Shown here piece after piece: positions 19,700 through 29,472 of a stretch of 33,613 nt of DNA. The notes under the pieces were generated by a model, which was not told the origin of the DNA, did not search any database, and saw only the letters and a list, made by a program, of their open reading frames with translations. How positions within the stretch are numbered: the first letter of the stretch is position 1; every line of letters starts with the position of its first letter. The stretch is from Cytophagales bacterium (GTDB lineage: Bacteria; Bacteroidota; Bacteroidia; Cytophagales; VRUD01): positions 2,669-36,281 of the forward strand of contig VRUD01000042.1 in assembly GCA_019456305.1 (NCBI GenBank), written 5' to 3'. The position numbers and the translations under genes were made by a program.

Positions 19700-22600
19700 T
19701 TACAATCTTATTCCAAAGACTAATATATCATCTACCTGCTCCAAATCTCCTTTCCAATTATTGAGTGTTTTAGCTAAATATTTACTTTGTTCTTTCATGT
19801 TAAGGTGCTGCATATCTATAATGATATTCTTAAAACGCTTTTTCATAAACTTCCTGCCGTTTGGACCACCAAACTGATCCACGAAACCGTCTGTAAATGT
19901 ATAAATTGTATCGCCAGAATAAAAGTCAATGTCATAACTATTAAATATTTTTTCTTTTTTGGAATATCCTCCAATTGAAAATTTGCTTGGTTTGTATTCT
20001 AAAAGTTCTCCATTCCTGATCAAGTACAAGGGTCTGTAAGCGCCTGAAAATTGCAGCATATTTTTATCCAGGTGTATAGCACACATAGCAATATCCATTC
20101 CATCAAATGTTTCCTCTCTCTCTCCCTTTTGTTTTAAAACTTCTTTTATTCTAATATCAAATTCAGTAAGCGCCTGAGAAGGGCTTATTATATATTTATC
20201 AGCTACGATCTGATTTAATATATCATTACCTATCATGGACATAAGGGCAGCAGGTACGCCATGGCCTGTACAATCTGCTGTTACTATAATTGATACATCA
20301 TCAATCCTGACAAACCAGTAAAAATCTCCGCTAACAATATCTTTTGGCTGATAAAAGATGAACAGGTCAGAGAAGTTTTTTTCGATTTGTTCTAAAGAAG
20401 GGAGTGTTGCCTCTTGTATCCGTTTTGCATACAGGATACTGTCTATGATCAGCTTGTTTTTTATTTTAATTTCATTATTAGCTTCTTTTAACTTAGCATT
20501 TTGCCTCTTAAGTTCCGTAGTCCGTTGCATAACCGTTTTCTCTAAAGTAATCTTAGACAGTTTGAGCACTCTCTCTCTTCTTTTTATAAAAACATATACA
20601 GATAACAGAGTCATTATTGCACATAAAGAATAAAACCACCATGTACGCCAAAATGGCGGGGTAATTTCAAATCCGAAGATGGCGGGTTGCTTATTCCGGA
20701 TACCGTCACTGTTGCTGGCAACTAATAAGAAGCGGTATTTCCCGGGAGGGATATTAGAATAAGTTGCTAAATGCTCATTGGTTGGCGGTGACCATTCTTT
20801 ATCAAAGCCCTCAAGCATATATTGAAATTTAACCCGGTCGGGATTAGAATAACTGATGCCGGTAAAATCGAATGTGAGGTGATTTTTGTTATATGGAAAG
20901 ATATTTTTTTCAGGAATAGCTTCATCTTTTAAAAAAATCCTGACGTTTTTAATAGCAGTTACCGGCTCAACCAAATTCTCTTTAAAGCTTGAAGGATTAC
21001 ACTTGACCAATCCTTTAATTGTACCGAACCATATATTTCCCAATGGATCCTTATAAACCGCATTTTGGTTGGTTTCTATGCCCAGAAAACCTTCAGATTT
21101 TCCATAATGGCGGATTTTGCCGGTACTTACATTAAGCTGATCAACGCCTGTATTTGTACCAATCCACACATTGCCAATATCATCACCTACTATAAGATAA
21201 GGATTGTCGGAACTGATCCCGTCTCTTGTAGTATAATTCGTAAATTCCATTCCATCAAATTTCCATTTTCCATCTTCCATCTTCCATTTTCCATTTTCCA
21301 TTTTATACACACCTCCTCCTATACTGCCAACCCACAGGTTCCCGTATTTATCTTCTGTAATTGAGCCAGGTCTTCTATGTGTTAATCCCTGCTGCTCATT
21401 AATGATCACAAAATTTTCACCATCATAAACCGCCAGGCCGGCATCATTACTGCCAAACCATAAATTTCCTTTTCTGTCTTTATAAACAGTCCATATTAAA
21501 TTACTGAAAAATCCATTTTTTTTATTAAATTGCTGAGAAGAGATTATTTTGTTTTGATCAATACTAAATTTAACGCAACCGGACCCCAGATCACACAGCC
21601 AGATATTTCCATTTTTATCCTCGTTTATTGTAATAACACGTTTCTTTTTCAATGCTTTAATTTTCGCAAAATTTTTAAAGGCCCTTTTTACCGGATCATA
21701 CCTTGATACTGAAGTTTTGGTGCCAATCCAGATGAAATTCCTGGTATCCTGGTACATACATTTAACATCATTATCACTCAAGCCATCATCAACGGTAAAA
21801 TGATCAACACTGGTTATACTATTCATCAGTGTATCAGAAAACAGATACCTCGTTATACCCTTCTCAGTACCAACCCATAAGCTATAGTCTTTATCAATGA
21901 GAACCGCATGAACAATATTGTCAGGCAGTCCTGTTTCTTTATCAAATATTTCAAAATTATCACCGAGATACTGGCAAACGCCACTACCCCAAACTCCAAT
22001 CCATATATTGGATTCCCTGTCTTCAATAATTGAGGAAACGATATTATTGCTCAATCCTTCTTTTTCGGTAAATCTTTTAAATATTCCGTTCTCAAATCTG
22101 ATTACTCCATTTGAAGTAGCAAGCCAGACTATTGGATGGTTGGTGTTTGATGGTTGATGGCTGATGTTGGCTATGTACAATTGTTTTACAAGCTGAAGCG
22201 GGAGGCCATCAATATCTTCATATTTGTTTTTTATTTTGATATTAAGATCACTGTCAAAATTTAGTTCACAAACGCCAGATAATGCAGCAACCCAGGCACT
22301 GCTAATACGTTCTACTTCATCGCTTTTGCCAGCCCCCCTAAATCCCCCCGAGGGGGGGACTTTGCCATCCCCTTTCCCTTTGGGCAATGGGGGCGGGAAG
22401 TCCCCCCTTTGGGGGGATTTAGGGGGGCTGTTAGGGGTGAGGTCGGTTATTTTAATATCGCGGATGTAATTATTCTGAAAACCGAAGTCAGATAAAAAGA
22501 TTTCCTTTAAAATTTTATCGGGATCATTTGGGTTGATTATATGAATGCCCTCATCGGTACCAATCCAAATATTACCACTTTCATCTTTTTCAAGGGCAAC

Positions 22601-23170
22601 AATATTATTTGAACGAAAACCATTTTCAGTGGTTAGTTCCTTTATTTTTCCCTTTTCCTTTATTGCCTTATTTAATACATAAATCCCATTTCCTTTTGTC
22701 CCGATCCATATATTGCCCAAATCATCTTCTAAAATATCTGATATGGCTTTATCTATTCCACTTAATTGATCTTTATAATGATAAAACCGTGTTCCATCCC
22801 ATTTTGAAACACCTTCATACCTGTAACCGATCCAGATGTTATTTTTGCTATCCTGGTATAATTTTACAACATGATTGCCTGCTAATCCGTTTTGCCGGTT
22901 ATAGACATCAAAGGCCTTTCCATTATATCGTGCGATACCTCCCTGGGTGCCAAACCATAAATAGCCCTCATTATCCAAAAGCATATCATAGACGGTGGCT
23001 TGCGGAAGTCCTTCATCTACCGAAAAATACCTAAAATTTGCCTTCTGTGCTGAACACAGATTACCACCGAGAAATCGGGGCAGGCTCAGATTTAAGAAGA
23101 TTGCACAGATTATACAACTTGTCCTGATCAATCGGCAGATTTTTATATAGGATATGAATTTTTCTCGCAA
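19700..23170 (-). CDS. Two-component-type propeller sensor with SpoIIE (PP2C) phosphatase output
   Basis: The 1156 residues run as follows. A membrane or export segment is near the N-terminus. About 45-760 are Reg_prop blades (repeated GLWFGTxxGIxRYNG and NIWIGT motifs). A Y_Y_Y domain spans about 767-832 (GISYSNPDRVKFQYMLEGFD), a membrane helix about 840-862, a coiled coil about 870-915, and a SpoIIE phosphatase about 935-1155. The phosphatase has metal-binding Asp in IVSGDFYW, ADCTGHGVPAALMS and TDGFVDQFGG. It probably senses a periplasmic signal and dephosphorylates an anti-sigma antagonist or similar; the partner is not in the window. The start used is TTG at 23170, 17 bases from a mobile element, with no in-frame ATG nearby, so the true start is uncertain. 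Two DNA repeats lie in frame inside the propeller (21261-21302, 22331-22429). Confidence 0.88.
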   Translation of the reverse strand: MREKFISYIKICRLIRTSCIICAIFLNLSLPRFLGGNLCSAQKANFRYFSVDEGLPQATVYDMLLDNEGYLWFGTQGGIARYNGKAFDVYNRQNGLAGNHVVKLYQDSKNNIWIGYRYEGVSKWDGTRFYHYKDQLSGIDKAISDILEDDLGNIWIGTKGNGIYVLNKAIKEKGKIKELTTENGFRSNNIVALEKDESGNIWIGTDEGIHIINPNDPDKILKEIFLSDFGFQNNYIRDIKITDLTPNSPPKSPQRGDFPPPLPKGKGDGKVPPSGGFRGAGKSDEVERISSAWVAALSGVCELNFDSDLNIKIKNKYEDIDGLPLQLVKQLYIANISHQPSNTNHPIVWLATSNGVIRFENGIFKRFTEKEGLSNNIVSSIIEDRESNIWIGVWGSGVCQYLGDNFEIFDKETGLPDNIVHAVLIDKDYSLWVGTEKGITRYLFSDTLMNSITSVDHFTVDDGLSDNDVKCMYQDTRNFIWIGTKTSVSRYDPVKRAFKNFAKIKALKKKRVITINEDKNGNIWLCDLGSGCVKFSIDQNKIISSQQFNKKNGFFSNLIWTVYKDRKGNLWFGSNDAGLAVYDGENFVIINEQQGLTHRRPGSITEDKYGNLWVGSIGGGVYKMENGKWKMEDGKWKFDGMEFTNYTTRDGISSDNPYLIVGDDIGNVWIGTNTGVDQLNVSTGKIRHYGKSEGFLGIETNQNAVYKDPLGNIWFGTIKGLVKCNPSSFKENLVEPVTAIKNVRIFLKDEAIPEKNIFPYNKNHLTFDFTGISYSNPDRVKFQYMLEGFDKEWSPPTNEHLATYSNIPPGKYRFLLVASNSDGIRNKQPAIFGFEITPPFWRTWWFYSLCAIMTLLSVYVFIKRRERVLKLSKITLEKTVMQRTTELKRQNAKLKEANNEIKIKNKLIIDSILYAKRIQEATLPSLEQIEKNFSDLFIFYQPKDIVSGDFYWFVRIDDVSIIVTADCTGHGVPAALMSMIGNDILNQIVADKYIISPSQALTEFDIRIKEVLKQKGEREETFDGMDIAMCAIHLDKNMLQFSGAYRPLYLIRNGELLEYKPSKFSIGGYSKKEKIFNSYDIDFYSGDTIYTFTDGFVDQFGGPNGRKFMKKRFKNIIIDMQHLNMKEQSKYLAKTLNNWKGDLEQVDDILVFGIRL
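21261..21302. repeat. Heptanucleotide tandem repeat TTCCATY x6 inside the SpoIIE regulator
   Basis: Six perfect-length copies of TTCCATT/TTCCATC (42 bases) lie within the coding sequence and are read on the minus strand as ENGKWKMEDGKWKF. The unit of 7 is not a multiple of 3, so gain or loss of one or two units would shift the frame. Confidence 0.88.
22331..22429. repeat. 99-bp GC-rich palindromic repeat inserted in frame in the SpoIIE regulator
   Basis: AGCCCCCCTAAATCCCCCC (22331-22349) has a perfect 19-base inverted copy at 22411-22429, and the stem continues inward (GGGGGGACTT with AAGTCCCCCC). The element is exactly 99 bases and reads as 33 codons rich in Pro, Gly and Lys (SPPKSPQRGDF...GGFRGA) within an otherwise ordinary propeller. 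The palindrome resembles dispersed intergenic repeats of other Bacteroidota. Confidence 0.88.
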
Positions 23171-23242
23171 AGACGTAAAAAAGTTTGGCTCTATTCTAAA
23201 AAGTTGTTGATAGTTAAATATTTTATAAATATTCTCAAAAAA

Positions 23243-23391
23243 AGCCCTGAAAGGGCGTGAGGTGTAAACACAGGGTGTAGTTCTGTGTTATTCTCTAGCC
23301 CTGATGATTAGCCCTGAAAGGGCGTGAGGTGTAAACACAGGGTGTAGCCCTGTGTTATTCTCTAGCCCTGATGGTTAGCCCTGAAAGGGCG
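23243..23391. repeat. REP hairpins left of the transposase (67-bp tandem unit)
   Basis: AGCCCTGAAAGGGCG occurs at 23243-23257, 23310-23324 and 23377-23391, a spacing of exactly 67 bases. Each unit also holds AACACAGGG paired with a CCCTGTGTT-like arm (perfect in the second unit). These are REP-type hairpins placed directly 3' of the transposase gene. Confidence 0.9.
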
Positions 23392-23400
23392 AAACAAGCA

Positions 23401-23853
23401 TCAGTCCCATACATAGCGTTCGTCATACTCCACATTATACTTCTTCAATAGCGCCCTGTATTCTTCCTGAAAAGTAATCTTTTTATGGTGTTCTTTCTGA
23501 TTTTCTATATAGGCTTTTACCACATCCACCTGGGAATGGCTAACCGAAAATGCGCCATAGCCACCTTGCCAGTAAAAATTTTTTAATGTTTTATCCATTG
23601 TTTTCACCCACTTTGAAGAATGTGATTTCACTTCTTCCAAAAGTTTCATTAAGGCGATTTTTTTTGATAACATGCATAAAATATGAACATGGTCTGTATA
23701 GCCGCCAATTTTTACAGGATGACATTCCAGGTTTTTGCAGATACCACCAAGATAACCATATAGTTTACTTTGAACAGGTTCATGAATAAGGGGGACGCGG
23801 TGCTTTGTGCTAAAAACCAAGTGTATGTAATTTTGAACGAGTGATTGTGCCAT
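23401..23853 (-). CDS. REP-associated tyrosine transposase (IS200/Y1 family)
   Basis: The 150 residues have the IS200-like Y1 fold: NYIHLVFSTKHRVPLI at the start, the metal-binding HUH motif in YTDHVHILCML (about 52-62), and the catalytic Tyr in VKAYIENQKEHH (about 112-123). Length is typical for RAYT proteins. These enzymes cut and join single-stranded DNA at REP hairpins. Matching AGCCCTGAAAGGGC hairpins lie on both sides, in opposite orientation, which supports the assignment. No frameshift is seen, so it may be active. Confidence 0.92.
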   Translation of the reverse strand: MAQSLVQNYIHLVFSTKHRVPLIHEPVQSKLYGYLGGICKNLECHPVKIGGYTDHVHILCMLSKKIALMKLLEEVKSHSSKWVKTMDKTLKNFYWQGGYGAFSVSHSQVDVVKAYIENQKEHHKKITFQEEYRALLKKYNVEYDERYVWD

Positions 23854-23869
23854 AACAAACGTATTTTAT

Positions 23870-23955
23870 GCCTGCCTGCCCGCCATTGCCTGCCTGTTCG
23901 GCAGACAGGCATTGTGGCAGGCGGGCGTACCGAAGTCCCCCCGAGTACTCGGGGG
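23870..23955. repeat. GC-rich palindromes upstream of the transposase
   Basis: GCCTGCCTG (23888-23896) pairs with CAGACAGGC (23902-23910), enclosed by GCCTGCCCGCCA and TGGCAGGCGGGC. CCCCCGAGTACTCGGGGG (23938-23955) is a perfect palindrome. Related CCGAGTACTCGG sequences occur at 24118-24145 and near 31021-31048. Confidence 0.7.
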
Positions 23956-23970
23956 AACACAGGTGTGTTG

Positions 23971-24054
23971 CACCCTTTCAGGGCTATTTATCGTTGTTGT
24001 TTGCTTTAACATAGGGCTATACCCTATGTTAATGAGTTACGCCCTTTCAGGGCT
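23971..24054. repeat. REP hairpins right of the transposase (inverted)
   Basis: CACCCTTTCAGGGCT (23971-23985) and CGCCCTTTCAGGGCT (24040-24054) are inverted copies of the left REP core. Between them AACATAGGG and CCCTATGTT (24008-24030) form a hairpin equivalent to the left AACACAGGG stem. Confidence 0.88.
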
Positions 24055-24159
24055 ATTTGTAGTGCAAAAGTAATGAAAATTTATCTATCAACTAAATTTT
24101 AGAATAGAGCCAAAAGTTTCTCCACGGGTACTCGGAGAGAAACTTCTCATTGACAAACA

Positions 24160-27100
24160 CTAATTAACCATCAATTTCCCCGCACCAATCAATCCATCTT
24201 TGGAGCGAATTTTGTAAATATAAATCCCCTCCGGCAGGTTTTTCCTGCTGATCACAAACCTATTACCTGTAATGTTGGAAATCTCTTTAACTTTCTTTCC
24301 TATAATGTTATACAACTCAAAAGTGTATCTCAACTTAAAAGTTGAGGTACTATTTATCTCAAATGTTGTGGTTGAGCTAAACGGGTTTGGATATACATTA
24401 ATTGAGATCTGCTTATCATAAATTTTTGAAACATTAGTAGTAATAGAATCAATATTACCAATGGTATTGAAAACCTTGTTGGTGATCACAGGATCGTTAA
24501 AGTCAAATATGATCCCTGCATCATTTTCTATTACCGTACCTATGGCATTCCCCGGCTTCTGGTGAATTTTGAATTTTACAAAGCCATGGCTTTCCGGCTC
24601 ATTCACATTGCTGTCGGGCAATAAAACATTGTTAAAAGTCCATTGTAAAATGTCGCTGCCAAAAATTTCGAGTGTGTATGGATGGCTGCTGGCACCGAGG
24701 ACGATTGTAGTGATGTCCAGGGTTGCTGATAAGGTGTCCCTGAGCACAATGTTAAAGGCAGTATCCGTACCGGTATTCTGGAAGCGGATGTTATATTCCA
24801 GTATATCGGTGGAATCAATGAAATGGAACGTATTGGTCAAACCTTCGGGCCGCACATTTTTATCATTCGGGTCCCATGAAGATACTACAGGACCGCATTC
24901 TATATCCACAAAATCATCTGCGTCATCAGTAGGTACCTGGGTTATTTGCCCGGTAATAAATGGAGTCCCGCCACACATCTCTACATTATCCTGTGGATGG
25001 CTGTTACCCGGATGGCCTGGTCTTTGGTCGGCTTCTAACCTGATGGTATTTCCGTTGGCAGGCCAGCATACTACCACGCTATCCCCGCCTGCCAGTTGAA
25101 AGGCGCCAGTAGAAATTAGCATATTATTTTCATAAATGCGGTACTGGGAAGTTCCCTGCATATCTCCAGTCCCCGGGTCTCCTGTATTGTAAATGGTAAA
25201 GCAAGCTAAACTATCGTTCACGCAGCTTCCTTCAACAGATATACTTGAACGATCCCAGGTTGAATCAGCAGGGAAACAACTGCTATCCGGATAAATATGG
25301 GCTGTTACACAGTGTGTACTGTTCATTACAGCACTACAGGAAATATTGATCAGTACTACAAATCTTCCACACTCATCTGGTACTAAATTACCTACATCAA
25401 AGGTATAGGTATTTCCATTTTGAGTTGTCCATGGTACTAAATAGCCATGAGAAATAGCATAGTTATACCAGGTATGTGTACTATTAGTATCAGCAGTAAC
25501 TATGTCAGGTAGTTCTATTTCTATATAAGCGTTGGTTGCAACACCTGTACCATTATTACAATAATCTACGACATAAAAGCTGCTAAAGCATGGTCTGTAT
25601 CCTATATGATTCAGGTCAATTGACAGATCAGGGCAATAAAAATCTGTTTGAACAGTGAAATCAATTGAATCAATCGTATTGGGTGATGAGCCCAGGTTCA
25701 GGTTGTAAGTTGGGGGAGACACCGGACAAACCTGGCTTCTGATGTTGTCATTATCAAGAAGTGAGATGGTATAATTGCCGCTATCTAAGTGTAATTGGAA
25801 AAAACCCCAATTATTGGTATAAGCATAAACCGCACCGGGATCGGCTCTCACCATCCAGCCGGATAAGCCGTAATCTGAACTATCCATAATGCAGTTGGCA
25901 TTCATATCATCAAAAACAGAACCTGTGATGAGGTTGGGCAGACAAGGGCTCAGGATCGTAAAGGTGGTATCTCTCATACAGCCATTTGCATCGGTGGCTG
26001 TCATCGTGTAGGTTCCAGGATATAAATAAGCGAATGACGACCACCAATTCCAGTAATGAGGCTGCGTATCCCATTGAATTGAATAAGGAGGGGTACCACC
26101 GCTGATGCTGTAAGAAACATTGCCAACATAGCCGCAGACGGAAGGGTTGGTTAACGTAAGCGTAATATTAGGTGTTGTTGTGGTTGTAATTATGGCAGTG
26201 ACGCTTATTTCACAACCGTTGCTATCCTGCACAAAAACAAAATAAATGCCGGCAGACAGGCTGTCAAACACATTGGTAGCGCTCCAGGCAGCTCCGGAAT
26301 CAATGCTGTACACATAACTTCCTATACCTCCTGATGCAATGATGGTAAAGTTGCCATCATTCGGGACGGCACATCCGACATTTATTATACTTAGGGTTAC
26401 TATCAGCACTGCAGGTTGAGAGATCGTAGCGCTTGTAGTAACGGCACATCCTGTACTATCCGTTACCGTTACAATATAAGTACCTGGCGCTAAACTATCC
26501 GCTATTGGATCGGTCTGTGCCAATGGATCGTTCCATAGATAAGTATAAGGAGCAATGCCTCCAATGGGGGTAACCATTGCAACGCCATTGCTATCGCCAT
26601 TACAGGATACATCTGTAGAAGTTATGGAGAGTGTAAAAGTTCCGCTGCCGGCAACAACCGCTGTATCAGTAACCGAACAGCCATTGGAATCTGCAATTAC
26701 TACTGTATAAGCGCCTGCACATAAACCTATGGCAGTATCTGTAGTTTGGAGATCACTCCATAGAAAAGAGTATGGAGGCGTACCGTTTGCAGGCGCTGCT
26801 GCTGCCGTGCCGTCACAATTCCCGCATGTGGCATCGGTTGTAGTAATAGTGGTTACGATTGGCAGGGGTTGATTGATAGGAACAGATTGACAAACAGTAC
26901 AACCCGTAGAGTCGGTAACACAGACCATGTAAGTTCCTGCACACAAAGCAACAGCAGTCTGACCCAAAGCTCCATTACTCCACGAATAGACATAAGGTGG
27001 GACGCCACCAAAAGGGGTTGCTGTAGCTGATCCGTCACAATTTCCAAAACAGGTAACATCGGTAGAAGTTATTGCAACAGTAAAAGCCCCGCTATCAGCA

Positions 27101-29472
27101 ACTACTGCTGTATCAACAGCAAAGCAGCCATTAAAATCTGTTACCTGTACGGTATAAGTACCTGCACATAAGCTTGTTGCTGTTGAATCTAATTGGACAG
27201 GCGATGTATTCCATAGGTAAGTATAAGGAAGCGTTCCACCGCTGACTGAAACCGTGGCACTTCCGTCACATAAACCACAAATAGCATCTGTTATTGAGGT
27301 GGTCATTACGTTTAATGCAGGTGGCTCAGTAAGGGTAATGCTGTCTGTAACCGTACAGCCATTGGCATCGGTAACAACAACAATCATAGTTCCGGCACAT
27401 AAACCCGGGGAATTACAATCCTCTGTAGTTGCTCCATTCGCCCATGAATACATGAAAGGAGGAGTACCTCCGAAAACTGTCAGGTTTAAAGCTCCATCAC
27501 AAAATCCGTTGCAGCTTATATTGGTTCCGGTTATGTTTGATATAAGTATTGAAGGTTCCGAAATAATGACCGAATTTGATGTGGTACATAGATTGGAATC
27601 AGTAATTGTGACTGAAAAAGTATCAGCACACAATCCGAATATATCCTGGGTTGAATCCCCGTTTGACCAGGAGTAGGTATAAGGAATGGTTCCACCAACA
27701 ACAATTAGATCTGCAACTCCATCACAAACTCCATTGCAGCTAACATAGACACCTATTATAGCGGTGTTAAGGGCTGCAGGTTGATTGATCGTAACAGATT
27801 GAGATACGGTACAGCCCGTAGAGTCGGTAACATACACAGTGTAAGTTCCAACACACATTGCAGAATGCAGTGGCCCGACAAATGCATCAGACCATAGGTA
27901 ACTATATGGAGCTGTGCCACCAATTGGGTTTGCAGTAGCAGATCCGTCACAATTTCCAAAACAAGTAACATCCGTAGTAGAAGTGATTGTGACAGTAAAA
28001 GTACCTGTATCGGCAACCACTGCTGTATTAATAGCAGAACAGCTATTAGTATCTGTAACCTGTACGGTATAAGTACCTGCACATAAACCTGTTGCGGTTT
28101 GTGTGGTTTGCAAAGCAGGATCATCCCACAGAAAGGTGTATGGCGCTGCTCCACCGCTGGCTGATGCATTAGCGCTCCCATCGCATAACCCGCAGGTGTC
28201 ATCGGTAGTAGTTGTTGTAAGGGTGAATGTGCATGCAGCGGTATTTATTATAGCTGCGCCTGCTGCAACGCAGGCATTGGCGTCAGATACGACTACAGTA
28301 TAGATCCCTGGACAAAGGTTAGAAGCCGTTGGTCCAGTACCACCAGTGGGTGACCAAGAATAAGTATAAAAAGGAATACCTCCTGATACTGTCACGTTTG
28401 CAATACCATCACAAGCACCAGGAGCAGATTCATCGGTAGTGATAATTGTTAAGCTTAATGCAGCCGGCTCACTAATTACAACACTTGCAGTATCAAAGCA
28501 GCCAATTCCATCGGTTACGGTAACAGTATGTGTTCCTCCTGTTAAAGCTAATGCTATGCTGTCTATCTCCGCATTATCCCACAAAAAAGTATAAGGGCCG
28601 CCAGTTACTGCCGCAGTTGCACTGCCATCTGAGCCGCCATTGCAGGAGACATTAGAGACAGTAGTGAATGAAATAGCTATAGCAGCTGGTTCACTAATTA
28701 CAACACTTGCAGTATCAAAGCAGCCAATTATATCTATTAGAGTTACATTATAGGAGCCTGCACACAAGTTCGTTAAATCCTGAGTAATAGCACCGTTTGA
28801 CCAGCTATAAGAATAAGGAGCAGTGCCACCGGTTACTGTCAGATTTGCTGCACCGTCACAATAGCCATTGCAGGTTGCATTTGTTCCAACGATTGAAGCC
28901 GTTGGTTCACAAAATACAGTTACTACCATTGAGAGCGCATCAGAACAGCCATTATTAGTATCGGTAACAGTTTGCGTAACGGTATAAGAGACGCAGGAAG
29001 CATAAAAATGTGTTGGATTTTCCAGCGTAGAAATGGTAGCATCCCCAAAATCCCACGAATAGCTTGCTCCCGGTGTTCCTGTATTGGTGAATGAATAACT
29101 GTTGCCGGTTAAGCATTGATTTCCATTATAAGTAAAACCGGCAGTTGGGCTTGGATACGCAACTATACTTTTGAACATTGTATCCGAACCAAAACCATTG
29201 GATACTATCAGCATTATGTTATAAGTACCAGAAAGATAAAAATGAACAGAATTTTGAGCCGTATCCATTGGACTTCCATCCCCAAAATCCCATAACCAGG
29301 AGGTTGGAGCATTTGTGGATGAGTCAGTAAAATTGACTGTAAGCGGTTCACACCCCGAATCAGGGTTGGCTGAAAAATTTGCTACCGGTGCCTGGGCTGA
29401 CGCGTAATTGCTGCTCAATAAGGCAAGCCCTAAAAAGGCTGCCAATACGGAGTAATTTCGTTTAGTTTTCAT
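24160..29472 (-). CDS. Giant SprB-repeat/PKD adhesin with T9SS type-A C-terminal domain
   Basis: The 1770 residues comprise a signal peptide (about 1-27), two PKD domains (about 28-188, WDFGDG motifs), and about 13 SprB-type repeats of ~75 residues (about 190-1180; pattern CNGxCDGxA...GGTxPYxYxWSNG...LCAGxYxVxVTDxxGC). An SdrD-like B domain (about 1186-1260) follows, then a conserved-repeat region with SWDPNDKNV (about 1530) and YNIRFQNTGTDTAFNIVLRD. The last ~80 residues (ISINVYPNPFSSTTTFEI to GKLMVN) are a T9SS type-A sorting domain. It should be exported by T9SS and held on the surface. Repeats 4-5, 8-9 and 10-11 resemble each other as pairs, so a two-repeat block was duplicated. Only a ~50-base gap separates its stop from the transposon-like unit. 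Confidence 0.94.
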   Translation of the reverse strand: MKTKRNYSVLAAFLGLALLSSNYASAQAPVANFSANPDSGCEPLTVNFTDSSTNAPTSWLWDFGDGSPMDTAQNSVHFYLSGTYNIMLIVSNGFGSDTMFKSIVAYPSPTAGFTYNGNQCLTGNSYSFTNTGTPGASYSWDFGDATISTLENPTHFYASCVSYTVTQTVTDTNNGCSDALSMVVTVFCEPTASIVGTNATCNGYCDGAANLTVTGGTAPYSYSWSNGAITQDLTNLCAGSYNVTLIDIIGCFDTASVVISEPAAIAISFTTVSNVSCNGGSDGSATAAVTGGPYTFLWDNAEIDSIALALTGGTHTVTVTDGIGCFDTASVVISEPAALSLTIITTDESAPGACDGIANVTVSGGIPFYTYSWSPTGGTGPTASNLCPGIYTVVVSDANACVAAGAAIINTAACTFTLTTTTTDDTCGLCDGSANASASGGAAPYTFLWDDPALQTTQTATGLCAGTYTVQVTDTNSCSAINTAVVADTGTFTVTITSTTDVTCFGNCDGSATANPIGGTAPYSYLWSDAFVGPLHSAMCVGTYTVYVTDSTGCTVSQSVTINQPAALNTAIIGVYVSCNGVCDGVADLIVVGGTIPYTYSWSNGDSTQDIFGLCADTFSVTITDSNLCTTSNSVIISEPSILISNITGTNISCNGFCDGALNLTVFGGTPPFMYSWANGATTEDCNSPGLCAGTMIVVVTDANGCTVTDSITLTEPPALNVMTTSITDAICGLCDGSATVSVSGGTLPYTYLWNTSPVQLDSTATSLCAGTYTVQVTDFNGCFAVDTAVVADSGAFTVAITSTDVTCFGNCDGSATATPFGGVPPYVYSWSNGALGQTAVALCAGTYMVCVTDSTGCTVCQSVPINQPLPIVTTITTTDATCGNCDGTAAAAPANGTPPYSFLWSDLQTTDTAIGLCAGAYTVVIADSNGCSVTDTAVVAGSGTFTLSITSTDVSCNGDSNGVAMVTPIGGIAPYTYLWNDPLAQTDPIADSLAPGTYIVTVTDSTGCAVTTSATISQPAVLIVTLSIINVGCAVPNDGNFTIIASGGIGSYVYSIDSGAAWSATNVFDSLSAGIYFVFVQDSNGCEISVTAIITTTTTPNITLTLTNPSVCGYVGNVSYSISGGTPPYSIQWDTQPHYWNWWSSFAYLYPGTYTMTATDANGCMRDTTFTILSPCLPNLITGSVFDDMNANCIMDSSDYGLSGWMVRADPGAVYAYTNNWGFFQLHLDSGNYTISLLDNDNIRSQVCPVSPPTYNLNLGSSPNTIDSIDFTVQTDFYCPDLSIDLNHIGYRPCFSSFYVVDYCNNGTGVATNAYIEIELPDIVTADTNSTHTWYNYAISHGYLVPWTTQNGNTYTFDVGNLVPDECGRFVVLINISCSAVMNSTHCVTAHIYPDSSCFPADSTWDRSSISVEGSCVNDSLACFTIYNTGDPGTGDMQGTSQYRIYENNMLISTGAFQLAGGDSVVVCWPANGNTIRLEADQRPGHPGNSHPQDNVEMCGGTPFITGQITQVPTDDADDFVDIECGPVVSSWDPNDKNVRPEGLTNTFHFIDSTDILEYNIRFQNTGTDTAFNIVLRDTLSATLDITTIVLGASSHPYTLEIFGSDILQWTFNNVLLPDSNVNEPESHGFVKFKIHQKPGNAIGTVIENDAGIIFDFNDPVITNKVFNTIGNIDSITTNVSKIYDKQISINVYPNPFSSTTTFEINSTSTFKLRYTFELYNIIGKKVKEISNITGNRFVISRKNLPEGIYIYKIRSKDGLIGAGKLMVN

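Follow-up and report, generated by a model that had tools for sequence, protein, structure and literature searches.

Structure of the composite element

The window analysed here is a 33,613-nt stretch of contig VRUD01000042.1 from a Cytophagales bacterium, and it contains a composite element of 925 bp (23187-24111) in which an intact Y1 (HUH) transposase gene lies between palindromes that are themselves enclosed by terminal inverted repeats. As an initial annotation of this DNA had proposed, and as alignment bears out, the ends are 33-bp repeats that match in inverted orientation at 29/33 positions, the left one (GGCTCTATTCTAAAAAGTTGTTGATAGTTAAAT) at 23187..23219 on the + strand and the right one (GGCTCTATTCTAAAATTTAGTTGATAGATAAAT in the − strand reading) at 24079..24111 on the − strand, and they are bordered by an exact 8-bp target duplication, AAAAGTTT, at 23179..23186 and 24112..24119 (no strand assigned; the right copy extends into a hairpin at 24114-24145). 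The chance of an exact 8-bp repeat at comparable spacing in the source genome is about 8e-5. The Y1 gene (23401..23853, − strand) encodes 150 aa and matches PF01797 at 1.3e-25; the transposase noticed inside the ends is intact. Three copies of the palindrome AGCCCTGAAAGGGC start at 23243, 23310 and 23377; the first two (23243-23256 and 23310-23323) open two tandem units of 67 bp that are 96% identical (23243..23376, +) and the third (23377..23390, +) adjoins the 3′ end of the gene. Beyond the start codon the palindrome recurs on the − strand at 23972..23985 (one mismatch) and 24041..24054 (exact). A Bacteroidota-type promoter match, TTG-N16-TACTTTTG (also written TTG-N16-TAnnTTTG), lies at 24065..24091 on the − strand and points inward to the Y1 gene, its TTG being within the right inverted repeat. 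The same inward arrangement is present in two further copies, C48 and C114, described below (background 0.25 per kb).

The vehicle family in the source genome

The source genome (G000) is a draft of 4.25 Mb in 159 contigs and is 98.4% complete. A search of the whole genome with GGCTCTATTCTAAAA (≤2 mismatches) revealed many paired ends and gave nine elements with both ends, C42 (that of the window), C12, C17, C24, C33, C48, C71, C95 and C114, so that the check for further copies suggested in the initial annotation yielded eight more. They range from 147 to 925 bp, the eight beyond the window element being 147-366 bp. Exact 8-bp duplications border six of the nine (window, C12, C24, C48, C95 and C114), C17 and C33 have duplications matching at 7/8 positions and C71 has none; a fixed-length duplication, exact or 7/8, is thus found in seven of the eight non-window elements, and the duplicated targets are mostly AT-rich. 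The consensus end is GGCTCTATTCTAAAwnnnGTTGATAG, about 27-33 bp, and the left-end sequence GGCTCTATTCTAAAAAGTTGTTGATAGTTAAAT recurs in at least eight further elements of the genome. Five elements of 209-269 bp have only the ends in common with the window element and contain no recognised Y1 sequence. The joined flanks of the other paired elements gave no clear interrupted open reading frame and hence no empty-site proof. Inverted ends common to several elements at different sites, together with a target duplication of fixed length, are the features that define a miniature inverted-repeat transposable element (MITE), and both were found; we refer to this outer layer as the vehicle and to the Y1 gene with its palindromes as the cargo. 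In 389 other genomes of the order there were zero matches to the 27-bp consensus at ≤3 mismatches, and reversed-pattern controls for this consensus were essentially nil.

At one further locus, L018 (C73 of G000, 790-878), a right-end copy stands alone, together with its promoter-like stretch (ending TACTTTTG), immediately upstream of a gene resembling glutamine amidotransferases (MSDTIHHHCGIA...), which gives the impression that a vehicle end was co-opted as a promoter by the host.

Movement of the cargo with the vehicle

The C48 and C114 elements are 366 bp each and 99.7% identical, lie at different sites and have different duplications (AAACAAAA and ATAAACAA). In each, palindromes of a different kind (for example GCTCCGTAGGAGCG), two on either side, accompany what is left of the C-terminal part of a different Y1 gene, ...FQIEYDEKYLFEWI-stop (as translated by eye); over about 66 bp at the right end both are 89% identical to the window element. 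C95 corresponds to the C48/C114 element with an internal deletion and has a duplication of its own, and C6 is a decayed copy of the window element, 97% identical over the aligned part and without the right end. That C48 and C114 are near-identical at different sites with different duplications shows at the sequence level that vehicle and Y1-palindrome cargo, once formed, moved as one unit.

The Y1 protein and its palindromes

The window protein aligns with IS608 TnpA across the HUH and Tyr motifs, including YIENQ, and its motifs read DHVH, WQ and YIENQKEHH. Subclass 1.2 of TnpA-Y1 is defined by DH[IV]H, WQ and Y---Q--HH in proteins of about 148 aa (PMC6006769), a pattern that the window protein and its aligned relatives share, and by these motifs the window protein is a TnpA-Y1 of subclass 1.2. 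The initial annotation had called it a RAYT (repetitive extragenic palindrome (REP)-associated tyrosine transposase). The Y motif of class-2 RAYT proteins includes NP, for example YIxxNP (PMC6006769); the window motif, YIENQKEHH, is without NP, and this identity, and with it the label, was rejected.

Palindromes were counted in 800 kb, about a fifth of G000. At ≤1 mismatch the AGCCCTGAAAGGGC-type palindrome had three matches, two of these in the C6 copy. Because matches are almost restricted to the element, we take them to be cognate flanking palindromes and not dispersed REPs, an identity rejected for palindromes nearly confined to the element in the DNA sampled. Of the five REP cores annotated earlier, then, the five palindromes stand (one with its mismatch) and the strict REP label does not.

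Other families of the same order have Y1 proteins related to that of the window, at 61-75% identity, whose genes are not bounded by the vehicle ends. The palindrome flanking one such relative, L058, is identical, AGCCCTGAAAGGGCG, so that the Y1-palindrome module is also found where the vehicle is absent. Plasmid-borne Y1 proteins were at most 54% identical to that of the window among the best matches listed. Inverted repeats spanning the gene exceed the 99th percentile of mismatched pairs at 16 of the 32 loci of subclass 1.2 that were tested. Inverted palindromes on both sides are thus present at half of these Y1 genes, whereas the class is described as generally without flanking structures.

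A second vehicle carrying Y1 genes

In the Bacteroidota metagenome-assembled genome (MAG) GWA2_32_17 (G393), Y1 loci are bounded by CTGATGTTACGCA, which is unrelated to the GGCTCT ends. There are about 100 such ends in this genome, against two in the control, and many of them pair into elements with 7-8-bp duplications. The ends of this MITE family read CTGATGTTACGCA / CTCATGTTACGCA, the duplications are TTA..TAA-like, and some members enclose Y1 genes. Both ends are present at L204 (650 bp, duplication TTAAGTAA, Y1 with a stop), at L224/L273 (718 bp, duplication ATCCTAA, decayed Y1) and at L226 (411 bp, duplication TAATTAA, Y1 remnant). The L198 locus, 92% identical to L273, shares the left end and has kept its Y1 intact; its right side is broken by an N run. 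At least three Y1 loci, belonging to two clades, lie in this vehicle. As the Y1 genes of the window, L198 and L204 belong to three different clades, capture by vehicles probably happened more than once.

The same ends in other genomes

A pattern scan of the GTDB genome collection (84,980 species) gave zero matches to the exact 27-bp end in genome contigs. A looser 23-mer matched MITEs of Bacteroidota and some Bacillaceae loci; two of the latter were checked, had one end each and were taken as chance. The ends are present in Paludibacter, Marinilabiliales, Perlabentimonas and other Bacteroidota MAGs, several with 8-bp duplications, and no transposase-bearing element was found in those MITE-bearing genomes at ≤3 mismatches. 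In Perlabentimonas an end is followed by the palindromes GGTGCGTTAGCACC and GGTGCAGCGCACC, 53 bp apart, which resemble those around one Y1 gene of that genome. A plasmid search with the right end gave weak, chance-like matches only.

The presumed helper transposase

The initial annotation had described the vehicle as ISL3-like and suggested a search for an ISL3-type transposase gene; by PF01610 (DDE_Tnp_ISL3) there is none in G000, nor is there a match to PF13610 (IS240/IS6 transposase) or PF12762 (IS1595 transposase). What stands of the assignment is the type of end and the length of the duplication. In ISL3 elements from this order the ends are of GG(T/C)TCT type and at least 20 bp long, as in GGTTCTTTATGATTTTACTTGA and GGCTCTCCCGAACTTTTGATGATTTG, and some of the elements have 8-bp duplications: GGTTCTTTATGATTTTACTTGA with duplication AAGAATTG, GGTTCATCGTCACATTCC... 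with AATTTACA, and GGCTCTCCCGAAC..., for which a duplication was not detected. The vehicle likewise combines GG(C/T)TCT-type ends with an 8-bp duplication, the likeness lying mainly in the first six bases. A helper of ISL3 type is therefore plausible, a proposal founded mainly on those six bases and the duplication length.

Other features of the locus

A distinct GCCTGCC-type palindromic repeat (23870..23926, no strand assigned) separates the Y1 start codon from the right-hand palindromes, and the same type is present near the C54 Y1 gene. At 23941..23952 (no strand assigned) is CCGAGTACTCGG, a copy of a palindrome that is truly dispersed in the source genome (51 matches at ≤1 mismatch in the 800 kb) and that some short vehicle elements also contain. 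The element is flanked by genes for a two-component-regulator-propeller/Y_Y_Y/SpoIIE phosphatase (19703-23170) and for a 1770-aa protein with SprB-repeat, PKD and Por-secretion features (24163-29472).

Discussion

We think it likely that the 925-bp element is a composite non-autonomous transposon, in which a trans-mobilised, MITE-like vehicle carries a subclass 1.2 Y1-palindrome cargo. The outer layer would be the vehicle, with its inverted ends and 8-bp duplications, moved in trans by a DDE-type transposase that searches of the assembly did not turn up, probably an ISL3-type enzyme or one from a comparable family with 8-bp duplications. The inner layer would be the subclass 1.2 Y1 gene between its own inverted palindromes, transcribed from a promoter that may start inside the right inverted repeat. 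We infer a DDE-type helper and its family, activity of the promoter and of the Y1 protein, and carriage between genomes. The findings are best read as repeated capture, in which MITE-like DDE vehicles mobilised in trans have taken up Y1-palindrome modules. The vehicle proposed in the initial annotation, MITE-like and carrying a Y1-plus-palindrome module, thus holds up as a separate layer that is multi-copy, makes 8-bp duplications and includes two near-identical cargo-bearing copies; its use there to explain how such genes spread is supported for movement within a genome and not beyond that. Several observations weigh against this reading. The GGCTCT-end vehicle has a single intact Y1 copy, the other cargo-bearing copies being remnants, and other Y1 genes of G000 are without such ends. 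An autonomous partner was not found in G000 (no ISL3, IS6 or IS1595 domain in a draft of 159 contigs), and no autonomous element with these ends was found in the GTDB collection.

The association of vehicle and cargo might instead reflect nested insertion, with Y1-palindrome modules preferring pre-existing MITEs as targets and the vehicle not being the means by which the Y1 gene moves. This would fit the presence of at least 3 of the 13 Y1 matches of G393 in a MITE family that forms a small share of the genome, and also L221, where an element end lies within the Y1 gene. However, one and the same composite occupies two sites, as C48 and C114, with a different duplication at each, the L198 and L224/L273 composites are likewise 92% identical at two sites, and an uninterrupted MITE homologous to the internal flanks of the window element was not found. 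We consider nested insertion unlikely as a general account, though insertion into MITEs could be how composites first originated, as distinct from how they later moved. It is also conceivable that the inverted ends are substrates of the Y1 protein, which would recognise and move them, in which case there would be a single element in place of two layers, as in the TIRtrons (TIRYTs), described as Y1 genes flanked by long inverted repeats forming repeat families (PMC3733652). The window element does have a Y1 gene bounded by long inverted repeats, but the ends are found on many elements without Y1, one type of end encloses Y1 genes of different clades, the closest relatives of the window Y1 are without the ends, and the described TIRYT proteins are of class 2, mostly subclass 2.1 (PMC6006769). 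We regard this explanation as very improbable.

A separate question, compatible with a composite moved in trans, is whether the helper belongs to the IS6 family instead of ISL3. IS6 ends begin GGYNCTGTTGCAAA and resemble GGCTCTATTCTAAA. The family is marked by 8-bp duplications and by short, conserved ends, and MITEs of IS6 type have been reported, one of 227 bp and one of 336 bp (PMC7986276). On the other hand, the IS6 transposase domain is missing from the genome, the ends here are 27-33 bp as against the 15-20 bp reported for IS6 (PMC7986276), and it is the ISL3 elements of the order that have GG(T/C)TCT ends of 20 bp or more. An IS6 helper thus seems rather doubtful.

Set beside known systems, the vehicle resembles DDE MITEs with 8-bp duplications (ISL3 and IS6 families) in its inverted ends, its fixed 8-bp duplication, its short, multi-copy elements and the lack of a DDE gene inside, but the window element differs in holding an intact foreign Y1/HUH transposase and its palindromes. 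The Y1 gene agrees with subclass 1.2 of TnpA-Y1 in motifs, size (about 150 aa), occurrence in Bacteroidota and low copy number; that subclass is described as generally without flanking secondary structures or insertion sequence properties (PMC6006769), whereas here inverted palindromes surround the gene and an element flanked by a target site duplication (TSD) lies outside them. RAYT/REPtron systems also have inverted palindromes around a Y1 gene, but with class-2 proteins and highly dispersed REPs (PMC2817692) in place of a class 1.2 protein and near-confined palindromes. The nearest precedent that we found in the open-access literature is the TIRtron, which is alike in having long inverted repeats that surround a Y1 gene and form a repeat family, and which differs in belonging to other Y1 classes and in that target duplications are not reported in the part of the description available (PMC3733652). 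Unlike those of TIRtrons, repeats of the window type also bound Y1-less elements and have 8-bp duplications outside them.

According to the main survey of RAYT-like Y1 genes, autonomous mobility has not been formally demonstrated for them, and generic transfer routes are suggested (PMC6006769), so that how they move is an open question, for which a TSD-flanked DDE-type vehicle is a concrete and testable route. A Y1-carrying vehicle is present here and, with unrelated ends, in a second genome, and subclass 1.2 Y1 proteins are now tied to cognate palindromes. More tentatively, and with rather less than even confidence, we propose that across Bacteroidota immobile Y1 genes and their palindromes may have been captured repeatedly by unrelated DDE MITE families as a regular means of dispersal, with the vehicle repeat serving as promoter. 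The composite element suggests how non-mobile Y1 transposase genes get moved.
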